Shown here piece by piece: positions 32 to 5,628 of a stretch of 7,738 nucleotides of DNA; within the stretch, counting starts at the first letter, position 1, and each line of letters begins with the position of its first letter. The position numbers and the translations under genes were made by a program. This DNA is from Planctomycetaceae bacterium (GTDB lineage: Bacteria > Planctomycetota > Planctomycetia > Pirellulales > Lacipirellulaceae). The DNA lies in NCBI GenBank assembly GCA_002713555.1, contig PATG01000002.1, positions 1-7,738 of the forward strand, given 5' to 3'. The notes below the pieces were generated by a model. The model searched no databases. It was not told the DNA's origin and worked only from the letters and a program-made list of their open reading frames with translations.

Positions 32-793
32 ATGATGCCCACCCCCCAGTACGAGCGTGACAGGTGTGTCACTGGAATCGCCGGGTTGGACGAAATTTTG
101 CGTGGTGGAATTCCCTACGGCTCCACGGTTTTGGTCGCTGGAACTTGTGGTTCAGGGAAGACAACCATGTGCATGGAATTCTTGGTCAATGGGGCCAGCC
201 AGGGTGAAGCTTGTGCCCACTTCTCAGCGACTGAACCTTCTGTAAAACTACTTGAGAATGTGCGTCAATTCGATTTCTTTGATATGCGTCTTGTCGATCA
301 AGGACTCATTAACGTGTTTGACATGGACGTGTTGTTCTCTTGGTTAGGCATGACCAAGTCCACATTCGATCTGTCGGATATTGATGCCATGGTCAAATCG
401 ATTACCGACATTGTCAACACCATTGGTGTCACTCGACTGGTGATTGATTCGGTTACGACACTCTGTTACAAGATTCCAAGCGAACAGTTGATTCGTGATT
501 TCCTGTTCAAATTGGGTAAATCTCTTGCAACATTAGGGTGTACAGCATTGCTCGTCTCGGAAATTACATCGTCGGGCGCCAAGGCATATTGGTCCTCATT
601 TGGTGTAGAAGAAGCTATTCTTGACGGCATTATTGTACTGGGTGACGTGGAAAGAATGGGGCACCTTCTCCGGTTCGTACAAGTTGTTAAGATGCGAGGA
701 ACTTCTCATGCTCGCGCAAAGTATGCACTGGAACTGACACCCAAAGGTGTAATGTTAACGCCGATGCTGAAGTGGGGTGCTGTAAATGATTGA
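32..793 (+). CDS. KaiC/RecA-like ATPase with intact P-loop (FlaH-like)
   Basis: This is a single-domain, 253-residue KaiC-type ATPase of the RecA superfamily, expected to be cytoplasmic. The N-terminus carries the usual KaiC signature TGIAGLDEILRGGIPYG (14-30). A canonical Walker A, GTCGSGKT, lies at 37-44, with K43 and T44. A Walker B strand TRLVIDS has its aspartate at 139, and a KMRG-x-x-H motif lies at 220-226. After the second strand there is a single acidic residue (E68 in SATEPS) where KaiC has a catalytic Glu pair, so ATP binding is likely and hydrolysis may be slow. It is the first of three related genes and overlaps the next by 8 bp, which points to one transcript and coupled translation. 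The start is uncertain: ATG codons lie at 32 and 35 with no clear Shine-Dalgarno site, and this frame stays open to the window edge, so the protein could begin further upstream. The family includes the archaellum regulator FlaH and many archaeal signalling proteins; the exact role here is unknown. Confidence 0.85.
   Translation: MMPTPQYERDRCVTGIAGLDEILRGGIPYGSTVLVAGTCGSGKTTMCMEFLVNGASQGEACAHFSATEPSVKLLENVRQFDFFDMRLVDQGLINVFDMDVLFSWLGMTKSTFDLSDIDAMVKSITDIVNTIGVTRLVIDSVTTLCYKIPSEQLIRDFLFKLGKSLATLGCTALLVSEITSSGAKAYWSSFGVEEAILDGIIVLGDVERMGHLLRFVQVVKMRGTSHARAKYALELTPKGVMLTPMLKWGAVND
774..779 (+). promoter_or_regulatory. Ribosome-binding site of the second KaiC-like gene
   Basis: GGGGTG ends 6 bases before the ATG at 786 and lies inside the last codons of the previous gene. 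It matches an archaeal anti-Shine-Dalgarno sequence and supports ATG 786 as the start, and so supports the 8-bp gene overlap. Confidence 0.6.
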
Positions 794-1373
794 ACTGGAT
801 GCGGGGATCGCTCAACAGTTGGCTGATGAAGTAAGTCCTTCTTCTGCTATTCAAGTTCGAGTAGGCACAAGTAATTCTGAATTGATTATTGCATCAATCC
901 TTCAACCGCTAATCCAAGGATTCGGGATGAGGGGAGTCTACATTTGCGCTTCTCGAAGTGCAGCAGAAATCATCCAAACTCTCGACAGCATCGGCATCGA
1001 TTCCAGCGGAATCCAATTCATCGATACTGTGTCGAGTGGATTCATCGGAGGAACAGAAGTACCGTATCCGAATGTTCGATTTGTCGATAGCCCAATCATG
1101 CTGGAGTCGATTATGTTGCGTACCCTATACCATTTGAGCGAATATACTGAAACCGGAAATTTCGTCATTTTGGATTCTGTAAACGCACTTTCAATTTACA
1201 ATGAGAAGCGAATGTTGGCAGAATATCTTCACACCTTCATCAATACATTCCGTGCGCGAGAGGTACTCACAGCCATCATCAACGTCCCAGACCAAACACC
1301 GCCAGGTGTGTTGGCCAACTTGGATTTGTATTGCACTGACCTCATCGATCGAGGGCAAGTTGTGATTCATTGA
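786..1373 (+). CDS. KaiC/RecA-fold protein with degenerate P-loop
   Basis: This 195-residue protein appears to be a shortened RecA/KaiC-fold domain. A strand-loop-helix at 22-39 sits where Walker A should be, but the loop reads GTSNSEL (27-33), with no GK[ST]. It therefore probably cannot bind ATP in the normal way. A Walker B-like strand survives as NFVILDSVNAL, with its aspartate at 130. It is followed by a helix (ca. 140-158) and a strand TAIINVP (162-168), in the order expected of the fold. The usual N-terminal TGIxGLDExLxGGIP segment is absent. The overall pattern resembles the degenerate, FlaH/KaiC-derived domains common in archaea (I am reminded of the haloarchaeal DUF7504 type, from memory only). 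It lies between two related genes, overlapping the first by 8 bp and sitting next to the third, so it is probably a non-catalytic partner of the intact ATPase. The fold call is moderately sure; the function is not known. Confidence 0.75.
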   Translation: MIELDAGIAQQLADEVSPSSAIQVRVGTSNSELIIASILQPLIQGFGMRGVYICASRSAAEIIQTLDSIGIDSSGIQFIDTVSSGFIGGTEVPYPNVRFVDSPIMLESIMLRTLYHLSEYTETGNFVILDSVNALSIYNEKRMLAEYLHTFINTFRAREVLTAIINVPDQTPPGVLANLDLYCTDLIDRGQVVIH

Positions 1374-1378
1374 GGTGA
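1372..1378 (+). promoter_or_regulatory. Strong ribosome-binding site that decides the start of the third KaiC-like gene
   Basis: GAGGTGA overlaps the stop codon of the previous gene (TGA 1371-1373) and ends 5 bases before ATG 1384. It pairs well with the archaeal 16S tail (UCACCUC). An in-frame GTG at 1375 lies inside this motif, so it is more likely part of the binding site than the start codon. Confidence 0.65.
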
Positions 1379-1383
1379 AAAAA

Positions 1384-2202
1384 ATGGAACCTGTACAATT
1401 TGACTCCGACGATGAGGAATTCTACGGTGATATGGGAAGCATCGGCTCTGTCAAATTCGATAACATCTTGACGGGGAGTCCACTAAATGATGGCAGTATC
1501 CCACGTGGTTTCACTTTGCTCGCCATTGGCAATCAAGGTGCAGGAATGGATTTGATGGCGAAACAATTCGCATCTGTCGCTGAAGATCCGGAAAACACAC
1601 TCTTGGTTTCAACAGCTGAGAGTCAAGCGGAGATTCTTGCGCTGTACCGCCGATATGATTGGCCGACTGACATCATGGTCCGAACCATGGGTGAGGAATA
1701 CAACCAGAATGTTTTGGAGCGAGATTTACGTGCCAGCCGATATCGACTCGAAGGGTTTACCATGCAAGATATTCAAAAACTCGCACAAACTCGATTCACA
1801 GAAAATGAGGTCCATGATTACTTGACAGATTTGACAAGTCAAATGACATCATTACCACCTTATTTCCGCGCAGCTGTGGACAATCTGGATTTCTTCTTTG
1901 CTCGAAACGACTCTTCTAGGGTGATCTCGATGCTCCGTATGATTCAAGCACATACGCAAATGAATCGTGGAATTTTACTGCTCAATGTTTCAAGTGACAT
2001 GGTAGACAAGTCTGTTGAGCGCCAGCTGTATGCCATCTGCGACATTGTGATGGAATTCGAAGTTGGTATGCTAGGAACAGACTTTGAAACACGGATGGTG
2101 ATTCGGAAATTCAGAAACGGACCAGAGAACCTGAAGGCGATTTCATTCCGTGTCACAAAGGATGAGGCGATTACACCAGAGACGGTGGATCGTATCGCAT
2201 GA
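1384..2202 (+). CDS. KaiC/RecA-like protein with degenerate Walker A
   Basis: The chosen ATG gives 272 residues; starting at the upstream GTG would add three. An acidic N-terminus (about 1-18) precedes a RecA/KaiC-like core. The segment before the P-loop, DGSIPRG (36-42), resembles the KaiC GGIPxG turn. The P-loop itself reads GNQGAGMD (49-56): the three glycines remain, but the invariant Lys is Met55 and the Ser/Thr is Asp56. E79 in TAES occupies the catalytic-Glu position, a Walker B-like strand AAVDNLDFF has its aspartate at 166, and KFRN (242-245) sits where KaiC has KMRG. A helical stretch at about 105-160 before Walker B is longer than in the first gene. The third member of the array, it is likely co-transcribed, with 10 bases between it and the previous stop. 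The Lys-to-Met and Thr-to-Asp changes argue against normal ATPase activity; a structural or regulatory partner of the intact ATPase is the likeliest role. Confidence 0.78.
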   Translation: MEPVQFDSDDEEFYGDMGSIGSVKFDNILTGSPLNDGSIPRGFTLLAIGNQGAGMDLMAKQFASVAEDPENTLLVSTAESQAEILALYRRYDWPTDIMVRTMGEEYNQNVLERDLRASRYRLEGFTMQDIQKLAQTRFTENEVHDYLTDLTSQMTSLPPYFRAAVDNLDFFFARNDSSRVISMLRMIQAHTQMNRGILLLNVSSDMVDKSVERQLYAICDIVMEFEVGMLGTDFETRMVIRKFRNGPENLKAISFRVTKDEAITPETVDRIA

Positions 2203-2237: not shown

Positions 2238-2297
2238 TGGAGCTATGCAATTATGCTCCATGGTTGCCAGCATAAGCAACCATGATATGATAATCAT
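2238..2297. terminator. Adjacent inverted repeats between convergent genes, possible terminator
   Basis: The 91-bp gap between the third KaiC-like gene and the convergent methyltransferase gene holds a perfect 9-bp inverted repeat, CATGGTTGC at 2259-2267 with GCAACCATG at 2276-2284, around an 8-base loop. Just upstream is a 6-bp repeat, TGGAGC (2238-2243) with GCTCCA (2255-2260), which shares two bases with the larger stem. A weaker 5-bp repeat, ATGAT/ATCAT, spans 2282-2297 and reaches the end of the methyltransferase gene. No long T-run follows on either strand. Archaeal termination mostly uses T-rich tracts, so termination is plausible from position rather than proven. Confidence 0.45.
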
Positions 2298-4492
2298 TCT
2301 TCATCTTCAAATAATTGAATGAACTCATTGTAGGTGTAATGATGTAAAAGATATGTCGCAATATGGTGACTAATGTTCCTATCTGTAATATGGAATTGCC
2401 CTTCGCCGTCTCTTCCATGTTGCCGATCTGAGAAATTGATATCTTCACCAATTTGTTCAGAACGAATACAGAAAACCAAAACTCTATTTCTGAAAAACAG
2501 CAAGTAGTATAATCTCGAAAACTCGTCCCTCTTAATTTGTTGCATATTACAATCCCAAGAGTGATCTTCCCTTTCCTCGAAATCTAAAGGGCGACTTTCT
2601 GGGTCATTATTGATGCATTGATCAATAAAATTTTCTACGGTAATTTTTTCACTGTTTGCTTCTAAAACTCTTGAACATTTTACTTCAACTCGTTCTCCCT
2701 CACGAGGATCGAAAAGATCGTGGAAGTTAGATTCGGGGCCTGCCAAATTTTCCATTGCTTGGATAAATATCTCTCCAACTTTGCCGAAACGTGTAGTATG
2801 TAGACTGAAAAGTCCACGCCTAAAGGACTCTACTCTATCGCACATAATTAGGGATAAGGAATCAACAGTTATTAGACTATATCCTGATTCAGTTCTCTGT
2901 AGTCCTAAATGTTGCAAAAAATTATCTTCATTGAATAATTCATACTGCTGGAAATATTCAGTATGTATCGGTAACGATATTAAATCTGATTGAAGGATTT
3001 TATGAGTGCTGAATAGTTTTTCAAACAACCACGACATGACATCACTATTGAGTATGTTTGCCAATTGTTGGTGCGTAATCGGGAAGTCACGTAGAACAAT
3101 TAAATTGGCGCTATTCAAAATGTACCGTTGTTCCTTGTCAACATAAAAGCGCGGATTATTGCTAATGAACTTGTAAATTATCTTCTGAGGGGCTTTGTAC
3201 AACTCCTCTGGTGCAACTTGCTGATACTGTGACAGATCGGATGAAATGAATGAACTTGGAGGCTTCAAACAGTCATCGGTGATATCAGAGCCACGATAAA
3301 CGGGTACTCCTCCTGCAAAATTAGTACTTTTAACCAACTTTTTGTTATTCCCTGTCACTATCCCAAGGGCCCATTCAACACCGTGATCTAGATTTCTGTG
3401 AGGCAAAGAAAAAAGATGCTTGATGATTTTAGCATCATTATCGTTAGAGTTAATGTTGAAAATCTGCTTGGGATTTTCTGAAAAAGATGATTGCTTTCGA
3501 AAATAAACATCAGTCCCCATTCGACATTTAACCTCATTATCTAATTCTGCCTCGTTTTTCCTTAGAATAACTGAAATAGCCTTGGTTTGAAGTTTTGGAA
3601 ATAATTTCCCATAATGTTGAATTGAGACAAGTTGGTATGAGAGTGCCTTCTGACGCGCATCTGCAAATGTTTCAATGTTGAAGAAAGCATCTTGCAACAG
3701 AAAACCAAGATATCCATTCTCGTTTAAGACCCCAAGAGAGGCAAAGAAAAAGAAGGAACTCGTATCAGAACTTTTCTTAATTCCCATTTGCTCTGCATAG
3801 CTATCTTTTACATCTTTGTTGATTTTCTTCCCCCACGGTGGATTGGTCATAATCACATCATATCTGTGACACTTATCGTTGATGTGATGCTGAATAAAGT
3901 CGCCTTGGACGATATTATCTGACATGTAACCTGTGGAGTCATATATCCTTTTTTTTGTCAATGCTACAGCAACAGGATCGGTATCAAATCCAAATATATT
4001 CTCTGGACGAAACCCCTTTTTTATCGCTTCAATGATGAAATTCCCTGACCCACAACAGGGGTCGCAAAAAGTCAAATCGTTACAATCAGTGTTTACTTGA
4101 TCAAAGAAATCACATATGACGTGCTTTGGAGTATAATATACACCCTCTTTGTTCCTATATGAATTTGAAAGTTGGGATTGGTATTCCTCTGCAAGTTGTG
4201 CGCAATCAACCACAGTAGAATCAAGTAAACTGAGAATTTTTTCTTGTAAGGGTTGGTGGTCATGCGAATCCTTTTTCGACTTGTTCGCTCGTGAAATTAA
4301 CTTATCTTTCCCGAGATTTTCACGTTTGAATTTAGTGATTGATTCCCCCGATATCAATCCAGACTTGGTACGTTCTAGATAGCCAGTTTTGATCCAATTT
4401 CTGATTGTTGCTATAGAGACAGAAAAAGCTGAGGCTGCTTGATCAATCGTAAGTTCGTCAGAATTACTGACGTTCTGGCCCCCAGTACTCAT
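2294..4492 (-). CDS. Single-chain restriction-modification-like protein: HTH, N6-adenine methyltransferase, candidate C-terminal nuclease
   Basis: From ATG 4492 this is 732 residues. (1) About 14-57 is a MerR/excisionase-type helix-turn-helix (DQAASAFSVSIATIRNWIKTGYL region). (2) An N6-adenine methyltransferase of the Eco57I/TaqI class follows, with YYTP at 119-122, the AdoMet motif DPCCGSGNF at 144-152, GFDTDP at 168-173 and the catalytic NPPW at 217-220. (3) About 370-525 looks like a TaqI-type target-recognition region, opening with a GIVTGNNKK motif near 377 and RGSDI near 400. (4) The C-terminal 160 residues hold a candidate PD-(D/E)XK nuclease: E574, D592/D595, EVK at 603-605, and QIK at 652-654. 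The protein probably methylates and cuts the same DNA site, as type IIG enzymes do, but those usually carry the nuclease at the N-terminus. The gene is clearly AT-richer than its flanks (sampled 60-base lines: 30% GC at 2461 against 50% at 541 and 57% at 6181) and no partner subunit lies nearby, so transfer is likely. An in-frame TTG at 4501 is an alternative start. The methyltransferase call is very sure; the nuclease call is moderate. Confidence 0.9.
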   Translation of the reverse strand: MSTGGQNVSNSDELTIDQAASAFSVSIATIRNWIKTGYLERTKSGLISGESITKFKRENLGKDKLISRANKSKKDSHDHQPLQEKILSLLDSTVVDCAQLAEEYQSQLSNSYRNKEGVYYTPKHVICDFFDQVNTDCNDLTFCDPCCGSGNFIIEAIKKGFRPENIFGFDTDPVAVALTKKRIYDSTGYMSDNIVQGDFIQHHINDKCHRYDVIMTNPPWGKKINKDVKDSYAEQMGIKKSSDTSSFFFFASLGVLNENGYLGFLLQDAFFNIETFADARQKALSYQLVSIQHYGKLFPKLQTKAISVILRKNEAELDNEVKCRMGTDVYFRKQSSFSENPKQIFNINSNDNDAKIIKHLFSLPHRNLDHGVEWALGIVTGNNKKLVKSTNFAGGVPVYRGSDITDDCLKPPSSFISSDLSQYQQVAPEELYKAPQKIIYKFISNNPRFYVDKEQRYILNSANLIVLRDFPITHQQLANILNSDVMSWLFEKLFSTHKILQSDLISLPIHTEYFQQYELFNEDNFLQHLGLQRTESGYSLITVDSLSLIMCDRVESFRRGLFSLHTTRFGKVGEIFIQAMENLAGPESNFHDLFDPREGERVEVKCSRVLEANSEKITVENFIDQCINNDPESRPLDFEEREDHSWDCNMQQIKRDEFSRLYYLLFFRNRVLVFCIRSEQIGEDINFSDRQHGRDGEGQFHITDRNISHHIATYLLHHYTYNEFIQLFEDEE

Positions 4493-4520
4493 AGACAACA
4501 ATCATGGAGACGAGCGACGG

Positions 4521-4617: not shown

Positions 4618-5628
4618 TCAAAGATAACTGAGAATCCAAACTATTGGGTCTCCGAACAATACAAGTGGAAGAATTGCAGGGAAAACAAACAGTAAGAATG
4701 GGTGCTTTGCGGTTACCCAGGCATTCTCAACACCGTACTCTGCCAACTCATTGAGAACTTGTTCGATCTCAGTTTCGGCGCGGCTACCACGTACTGGACG
4801 CATTCGACGAGTTACGCCTCGTGTCCCATCGGGTTTGTCAATCACTTCTTCAAGCAACCACACGTGGTTATTCGTAATTTCGCCCAATGCCATTTTTGAA
4901 GCGTGCCACGACATTGAAAGAGGTCTCAAATCACCTCTCCCCGCATTCCGGGCCAACATAATCAATGGTAAAACCAAGAAAGCCAAGCCAGCCCAAATCA
5001 GAAGTGATAATGCAGGTGGCATCGATGTTGACATCGCAGAATCATCGAGATACAGTGGGAATGCAGCACCCACCCAAGAAGGTAGTAACAAGGTGGCAAG
5101 CATCATTGCTTTGGCATCGGCACCACCGTGTAGCATCCTGAATCGCCAAGCCATCTCAAAGAATAGCAACACAATGCCCATGAGAATCATTTGCCCCCAC
5201 AACAACGCTGCCTTGGTCAATGCAGATTCTGTATCCATAGGTATACTTGGATCAAAATAATCCATGAGGACAGGCACATATTCCATTGCACCCATCACCA
5301 ATCCGACGCCACTGACAAAGTACCAAATGGTCACCGCGACATCCAATTTTGAGCCCTTGCGTATATCATTGAAATCTGGAATGCCAATCAATGCGGTAGA
5401 GGCGAAAGCAACAACGGCAGACGCTGTTAGCCATATCATCCAACCGGCTTCGAGAATCAACAGCTCTAGCATTAACAAGAACAGTGTGGGTTTTGCCCAC
5501 CCCCACCACCAATCATTGGATACGCGACGGGTTTTGTGATCAAGCCAAGCCGCTCCGCCAAAACAAACAACCAGTACGCTGAGGCGAACCCATTGAATAA
5601 GTTCCAACTGAATATCGATATCTGACAT
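4618..5628 (-). CDS. Archaeal prepilin/preflagellin-type peptidase, family A24
   Basis: This 336-residue membrane aspartic peptidase of the FlaK/PibD/TadV class would remove the short signal peptide of archaellins or type IV pilin-like proteins at the cytoplasmic face. Both catalytic motifs are present: the first Asp is D30 in AAWLDHKTRRVSN after the first membrane helix, and the second is D171 in HGGADAKAM, the GGAD form of the GxGD motif. I count about eight hydrophobic segments (roughly 13-28, 46-68, 69-83, 97-118, 139-161, 173-192, 205-226 and 310-335). A soluble region of about 80 residues (227-305) precedes the last helix. The two Asp residues are 141 positions apart, clearly more than I recall for FlaK of Methanococcus maripaludis (Asp18 and Asp79), and the protein is longer than that family's usual 230 or so. 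The start is ATG 5628 with CAGGTG 9 bases before it. Substrates are not in the window. Archaellum and pilus roles cannot be separated here. Confidence 0.85.
   Translation of the reverse strand: MSDIDIQLELIQWVRLSVLVVCFGGAAWLDHKTRRVSNDWWWGWAKPTLFLLMLELLILEAGWMIWLTASAVVAFASTALIGIPDFNDIRKGSKLDVAVTIWYFVSGVGLVMGAMEYVPVLMDYFDPSIPMDTESALTKAALLWGQMILMGIVLLFFEMAWRFRMLHGGADAKAMMLATLLLPSWVGAAFPLYLDDSAMSTSMPPALSLLIWAGLAFLVLPLIMLARNAGRGDLRPLSMSWHASKMALGEITNNHVWLLEEVIDKPDGTRGVTRRMRPVRGSRAETEIEQVLNELAEYGVENAWVTAKHPFLLFVFPAILPLVLFGDPIVWILSYL

Follow-up and report, generated by a model that had tools for sequence, protein, structure and literature searches.

A conserved gene trio of one intact and two inactive KaiC-like proteins in Poseidoniales, and a possible hetero-oligomeric complex

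Work by Makarova from 2017 is said to have described KaiC-like ATPases together with inactivated homologues in archaeal signalling. Related architectures are known from circadian KaiC, in which two KaiC domains are fused and which has KaiA and KaiB as partners and is phosphorylated rhythmically, and from the Elongator subcomplex Elp4-Elp5-Elp6 (Elp456), a hetero-hexamer of three RecA-fold subunits. Active KaiC-like proteins and their inactivated homologues (iKaiC) in archaeal signalling are also treated in Galperin 2018 (PMC5847659). Further KaiC-like proteins are known to work together with archaella and pilins, namely ArlH (PMC8978795) and CirA of Haloferax (PMC13286277). In bacteria, the N-terminal domain of the secretion-linked protein BcsE has a predicted fold like that of RecA/KaiC, and it still oligomerises although its Walker A has diverged (PMC7439463).

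Here we describe three adjacent KaiC-like genes, P1, P2 and P3, at the start of a window of 7,738 nucleotides, by which we mean the whole stretch of DNA that was analysed. The trio resembles the iKaiC systems in bringing together an active KaiC-like protein and broken-site homologues of the kind that act as signalling hubs. It differs from them in being a fixed set of three single-domain proteins, of which one is active and two are inactive, in keeping its order over a wide range of one phylum, and in having lost different parts of the ATP interface in each subunit. With ArlH/FlaH it shares the single-domain KaiC fold, and among solved folds FlaH comes nearest to P3, level with KaiC, but ArlH has its own gene, clade and locus, the trio has no adjacent ArlI/ArlJ, and an ArlH encoded elsewhere in a related genome (locus L091) retains its Walker A. 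Unlike circadian KaiC, P1 has one KaiC domain, and unlike Elp456, the trio has one subunit with a full P-loop; moreover, P1 did not reach the Pfam cut-off for Elp4 (PAXNEB; 14.8 versus 28 bits), nor did a P2 relative reach that for Elp5 (Elong_Iki1; 11.4 versus 22.5 bits). BcsE is alike in its KaiC-like fold with a diverged Walker A, and differs in being a single multidomain bacterial protein; the excerpts of the BcsE paper mention no active same-fold partner beside it.

The source of the window is an archaeon of the Poseidoniales that stands near Thalassarchaeaceae. Among the planktonic archaea of ocean surface waters, Poseidoniales are the most abundant (PMC6461757). We compared the window with the 80 nearest loci kept out of 200 stretches encoding a P1 relative: 13 of them (L001-L013) match the window P1 at 94-99% identity and the remaining 67 at ~78-84%, and the contig titles of the closest relatives read Candidatus Thalassarchaeaceae, Poseidoniales, Marine Group II or Euryarchaeota archaeon. 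The window begins within the P1 leader, and its other genes, as recognised by Pfam, encode a DNA methyltransferase, an A24 prepilin peptidase, UPF0147, an Asparaginase_2-family protein and LonB (Table 1 gives the features discussed here).

Table 1. Positions of the trio and associated features in the window
Feature	Position	Strand	Basis
P1, intact KaiC-like ATPase, 253 aa	32..793	+	PF06745 and motifs
P2, KaiC-like protein, short and inactive, 195 aa	786..1373	+	AlphaFold2 model; PF06745 below cut-off
P3, inactive KaiC-like protein, 272 aa	1384..2202	+	PF06745, model, motifs
GGTGA, putative ribosome-binding site of P3	1374..1378	+	Sequence
A24-type archaeal prepilin peptidase	4618..5628	-	PF06847 30.9 bits, cut-off 29.9

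The initial annotation had read the trio as KaiC-like proteins with a working P-loop in the first only, and motifs and predicted models, together with Pfam for P1 and P3, confirmed this. P1, whose 253 aa align to one half of KaiC, scored 187 bits against PF06745 (cut-off 26.6) and carries Walker A (GTCGSGKTT), Walker B (IDS), the catalytic-Glu position (E68) and a trans finger (K220-M-R222). We counted such motifs in alignments split into Poseidoniales, a distant group of class genomes referred to as lineage c, and other rows, using only rows with a letter at the position concerned. Given in that order, the Walker A Lys of P1 is present in 80/80, 17/17 and 20/20 rows, the catalytic-Glu position is kept in 80/80, 17/17 and 20/20, and the finger Arg (K-M-R-G) in 80/80, 18/18 and 20/20. 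By its motifs, P1 thus carries both faces of a ring ATP site and alone among the trio could bind and hydrolyse ATP.

The best start of P3 is the ATG at 1384, within an open reading frame that opens at a GTG at 1375, and it was this 275-aa frame that scored 29.6 bits against PF06745 (cut-off 26.6). The closest solved folds to its model are FlaH (4yds) and KaiC, tied. At the Walker A place P3 reads GNQGAGMDL, and the finger K-F-R-N is retained, its Lys and Arg being K245 and R247 of the 275-aa frame. Among relatives, the Walker A Lys occurs in 0/76 Poseidoniales, 18/18 lineage c and 1/18 other rows; the Thr place of Walker A is Glu/Asp in 76/76, 18/18 and 14/18; and the catalytic-Glu position is Glu in 76/76, 17/17 and 18/18. 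The finger is equally widespread, with Arg/Lys in 74/74, 17/17 and 16/17 rows and the following Asn in 74/74, 17/17 and 17/17. Since P3 of lineage c reads GKEL at Walker A, the acidic residue is a steadier mark of P3 than the loss of the Lys. On these sequences lineage c either retained or regained that Lys; a single loss is unsupported, as the Lys-bearing lineage c branches among Lys-less rows in the tree.

We take the finger residues of the KaiC CI domain to be K224/R226. HMMER places the K-x-R of P3 under the K-F-R of KaiC weakly (1.5 bits for the stretch), so that the alignment of the finger depends chiefly on how far the structural match to KaiC CI chains extends at its C-terminal end; it reaches residues 248-251, beyond the finger. 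Read in this way, P3 has mainly the neighbour-serving face of an ATP site.

P2 scored 20.6 bits against PF06745, under the cut-off, and its AlphaFold2 model has a PH0284/KaiC fold. It has neither a P-loop nor a catalytic Glu (0/114 rows carry Glu at the catalytic place), and its C-terminal end lies at about the start of the finger hairpin; the structural match to KaiC CI chains stops at residues 225-229. What is conserved strongly are the SPIMLE and LDSVN regions, together with the Walker B Asp (114/114 rows) and the Glu of SPxMLE (114/114). As far as its motifs tell, P2 therefore has neither face of an ATP site. Profile comparison (hhalign) did not recover P2 from the P1 or P3 profiles, and consequently the case for its kinship with them is made by its fold and by weak matches to Pfam; P1 and P3 found each other at E 1.5e-5. 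The P2 profile gave zero matches against PDB sequences. Haloarchaeal DUF7090, tried as a P2 counterpart, was rejected when the family matched Haloferax volcanii only, among 14 controls. As predicted KaiC/RecA folds with a lost Walker A, P2 and P3 of the window fit the description of iKaiC proteins; the absence of a RecA fold, which would have spoken against the earlier reading, did not appear, and the motif content matches its expectation of one ATP-burning and two non-burning subunits.

The expectation that the trio is conserved as a block was likewise borne out, in the 80 Poseidoniales loci up to the ends of their contigs, 17 lineage-c loci and 18 of 20 phylum loci. Downstream of P1 on the same strand, P2 was found in 78 of the 80 Poseidoniales loci and P3 in 76. 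In the four loci without P3 the contig ends soon after the last gene seen, that is 2 and 85 bases past the P2 match in L049 and L053, and 175 and 91 bases past P1 in L058 and L071. P1 and P2 are spaced by -8 to +3 bases (overlap or gap) in 74/78 loci.

Among 145 genomes drawn from the class, P1 was detected in 100 and P3 in 97 at E ≤ 1e-40 (100 for P3 at 1e-3). Both occur in 96, on one contig in all but G028, which has them on separate contigs, P1 stopping 91 bases and P3 beginning <500 bases from a contig end. P3 without P1 was seen once, in G127, where a contig begins with a fragment of the gene. Grouping the class genomes by LonB identity to the window (LonB matched in 137/145) separates three sets: all 79 genomes at 74-93% have P1 or P3; the 41 at 68-73%, here called clade b, have neither; and 16 of the 17 at 56-59%, most of them ~1 Mb in size, have the trio. 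The last set is lineage c, perhaps Marine Group III. Six of the eight genomes without a LonB match carry P1 or P3. Trio order is the same in 17 lineage-c loci, at best-segment identities of ~50% for P1, 32-39% for P2 and 36-41% for P3.

At the level of the phylum, a P1 relative was found at E ≤ 1e-55 in 126/292 genomes. From the 68 P1-positive genomes outside the class draw we fetched and inspected 20 loci, picked by score and contig. P1, P2 and P3 are ordered on one strand in 18 of the 20, with P3 of L160 cut by the contig end and one gene inserted between P2 and P3 in L159, L161 and L173; the exceptions, L170 and L174, have P1 and lack P2 and P3. The tree places the P1 of L160 beside lineage c, and this locus may belong to the class. 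In a tree of 78 chosen rows, whose deep joins are unsure owing to long branches, P1, P2, P3 and ArlH (three rows) each fall on one side of a branch, with supports of 98/97, 100/100, 100/99 and 100/100, respectively. With each trio member forming one clade the trio looks old, and it was probably in place before the phylum members sampled here diversified. Two natural joined P1-P2 proteins (P0283, complete at 456 aa, and P0295) point to contact between P1 and P2, or could be frameshift or sequencing artefacts.

Directly upstream of P1 in Poseidoniales lies a gene for a ~365-aa pilin-like lamin-tail-domain (LTD) protein, at position -1 in 75 of the 78 loci with a called P1. Two members matched PF00932 (1.1e-9 and 1.5e-9), and the consensus de...tAV.EFLsAF.LFL suggests a class-III-signal-like N terminus. 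The gene is present in L001, which shares 99% P1 identity with the window; as the window begins within the P1 leader, its own copy would fall just outside. One distant trio, L161, has an LTD homologue ~730 bases upstream (E 1.8e-23; PF00932 2.5e-11), and the search of the lineage-c and phylum loci gave nothing else under E 0.1. The upstream genes of four lineage-c loci (L102, L105, L111 and L112) encode an OPT transporter (PF03169, 4.8e-38 in L105) and a ~141-aa protein, and the pilin is absent there. The pilin is thus not a universal partner, and its link to the trio is supported by gene order only. Compared with the small pilins of T4P-2, in a loose search of 443 frames, the LTD pilin gave a best E of 0.016, on which we claim no homology.

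Beyond the LTD gene, 68 loci encode a ~990-aa surface protein (SURF), on the opposite strand in 65, with a predicted C-terminal membrane anchor. An acidic ..FF tail ends 47 of 53 long copies, the remaining six including at least three truncated ones; two members had no Pfam match over cut-off and one had no PDB sequence match. Gene clusters farther out vary between families. An A24 prepilin peptidase, a possible functional neighbour, is near the trio in 10/80 loci, directly behind P3 in seven that are near relatives of the window and upstream of the trio in three. In L159 and L161 the gene between P2 and P3 is MetOD1/ATC-hydrolase-like (MetOD1 1.1e-5 and 3e-5, over cut-off; ATC-hydrolase below cut-off), and such domains occur with archaeal response regulators (Galperin 2018, PMC5847659).

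We judge the chances about even that the three KaiC-family proteins, which separated long ago, are produced together and assemble into a single cytoplasmic hetero-oligomer with a signalling or scaffold role. The patterned loss, with P1 whole, P3 lacking the Lys except in one lineage yet retaining the catalytic-Glu position and almost always the finger, and P2 having neither face, fits a hetero-oligomer in which P3 completes the site of P1, and retention of the same trio far beyond the window genome suggests one regulatory complex. In such a complex, P1 would bind and turn over ATP; P3, mostly unable to bind ATP conventionally, would sit beside P1 in a ring and complete its ATP site with the trans-acting K-x-R finger; and P2, bringing neither side of an ATP interface, would probably dock on the ring as an adaptor. 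The ATP state or turnover of P1 would then set the shape of the complex, to be read by a membrane-side partner. Gene order makes the pilin-like LTD protein the likeliest candidate for that partner in Poseidoniales, and the divergently encoded, membrane-anchored SURF protein may be a further one. A more specific and less likely reading is a mixed KaiC-type ring of P1 and P3 with P2 as output adaptor, a phylum-old, asymmetric three-subunit machine that divides the cis and trans functions of the ATP site. P3 would there serve solely to donate its finger: its own ATP site would have been removed, the Lys being lost outside one lineage and the Walker A Thr replaced by an acidic residue in most rows, and the trans K-x-R kept to fire the ATP of P1.

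The same genes could instead be co-expressed and their products physically separate, P1 forming homo-hexamers and P2 and P3 serving other partners as iKaiC-type adaptors. Such an arrangement would suit the iKaiC domains known as separate signalling modules (PMC5847659), the gene inserted between P2 and P3 in three phylum loci and the two of 20 phylum loci in which P1 stands without P2 and P3. Yet order and near-overlap are preserved far across the phylum, a lone P3 was met in a single fragment among 145 class genomes, and P3 retains a finger that, to judge from KaiC, acts on the ATP site of the adjoining subunit, and so we regard separate action as rather unlikely. A further proposal, compatible with the hetero-oligomer, makes the trio the cytoplasmic control ring of a T4P-2 pilus whose PilB-like ATPase and two TadC proteins Poseidoniales carry at another locus. 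Across the 145 class genomes, trio and T4P-2 ATPase are both present in 93, the trio only in 8, the ATPase only in 1 and neither in 43 (clade b has neither); these counts and those for ArlI below leave out weak cross-hit-like matches, one 77%-identical ArlI fragment being kept, and Fisher values for co-occurrence ignore kinship. The pilin-like neighbour and the nearby prepilin peptidase point the same way. The agreement may, however, reflect one clade-wide loss, and the phylum test does not discriminate, as a T4P-type ATPase occurs at E ≤ 1e-40 in 20/20 P1-bearing genomes, two of which lack P2/P3, and in 17/20 genomes that lack P1. Furthermore, ten ArlI/ArlJ/Tad/T4P motor queries found no match in 120 P1 loci at E ≤ 1e-10 (1.63 Mb, many loci being short), when in 26 control loci the ATPase queries matched 25 (ArlI 25) and the platform-protein queries 6-10 (ArlJ 8). 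Together with the four lineage-c loci that lack the pilin, this leaves the control ring unlikely.

The lack of FlaI/FlaJ- or TadA/TadC-like motor genes in those 120 loci bears equally on the guess in the initial annotation of a filament or signalling control complex, drawn from FlaH and the archaellum motor; the archaellum part of it did not hold. Archaellum operons occur throughout Poseidoniaceae and in half of the genera of Thalassarchaeaceae (PMC6461757). One class genome, G004, has a separate archaellum-type locus (L091) with archaellin-like genes, ArlH, ArlI and ArlJ, and further carries a T4P-2 locus and a Tad-like locus; the names of the smaller genes at these loci were read from sequence. 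The three ArlH rows form their own clade, and against the NCBIfam ArlH cut-off of 215 bits P1 scored 34.7 and P3 39.5, with P2 unlisted. In the 145 genomes, trio and ArlI co-occur in 71, the trio is found without a strong ArlI match in 30, ArlI without the trio in 7, and neither in 37. An ArlH-like archaellum module is therefore highly improbable. We consider a KaiC-type clock or oscillator, with P2 and P3 as KaiA and KaiB, just as improbable: P1 is a good KaiC relative, but it has a single KaiC domain, and the P2 and P3 models match KaiC-type folds.

Signalling by active and inactive KaiC proteins is already known, and the fixed trio, which no title or abstract opening among the papers surveyed describes, looks like a new form of that idea. 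To our knowledge, little is known of the signalling components of Poseidoniales, and a conserved KaiC trio with one active and two inactive members would offer a core on which they could be tested. If the mixed ring is real, it would be a ring ATPase in which the ATP-binding and finger roles are divided among paralogues, comparable to Elp456 and separate from it, and particular single residues of P3 should matter even though P3 would itself be unable to use ATP.

Between the trio of KaiC-like proteins (P1, P2 and P3) on one side and the A24-type prepilin peptidase on the other lies a DNA methyltransferase gene, whose product carries an N-terminal HTH. GC content is 0.37–0.39 in the methyltransferase region, compared with 0.45–0.53 in windows outside it. 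Because a tblastn search of relatives' loci (80 kept of 200) returned no match to the methyltransferase, and because P3 and the prepilin peptidase adjoin in 7 of these 80 loci, the gene is probably a recent insertion.

Genes located next to or within the trio, in the window and in relatives' loci (L)
Feature	Location	Strand	Matches
Type II-like N6 DNA methyltransferase, 735 aa	window 2294-4501	-	PADLOC MTase_II, 4e-186
OPT oligopeptide transporter and ~141-aa protein, directly upstream of trio	L105:2903-5514
Gene between P2 and P3	L159:3751-4875		MetOD1/ATC-hydrolase
Gene between P2 and P3	L161:6785-7900		MetOD1/ATC-hydrolase
Gene between P2 and P3	L173:4364-4930		no Pfam match

The transporter and the ~141-aa protein also directly precede the trio in L102, L111 and L112, which belong to the same divergent lineage of the class as L105; in L105 a Pfam search of the ~141-aa protein found no family over the cut-off. 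Among the loci from elsewhere in the phylum, the intervening gene of L173 looks similar, by eye, to those of L159 and L161. P1 and P2 form a single chain in two natural proteins (P0283 and P0295).

At position -2 of the trio, L031, L002 and other Poseidoniales loci encode a large protein that looks exported and carries an anchor at its C terminus. Of the 53 long copies, 47 end in an acidic ..FFx cytoplasmic tail that looks like a docking motif.

The trio and the PilB-like ATPase of the type IV pilus system T4P-2 are both missing from an entire clade of the class (clade b, 41 of 145 genomes), defined by 68-73% LonB identity to the window. Despite this joint absence, 6 of the 41 genomes retain the archaellum motor gene ArlI.
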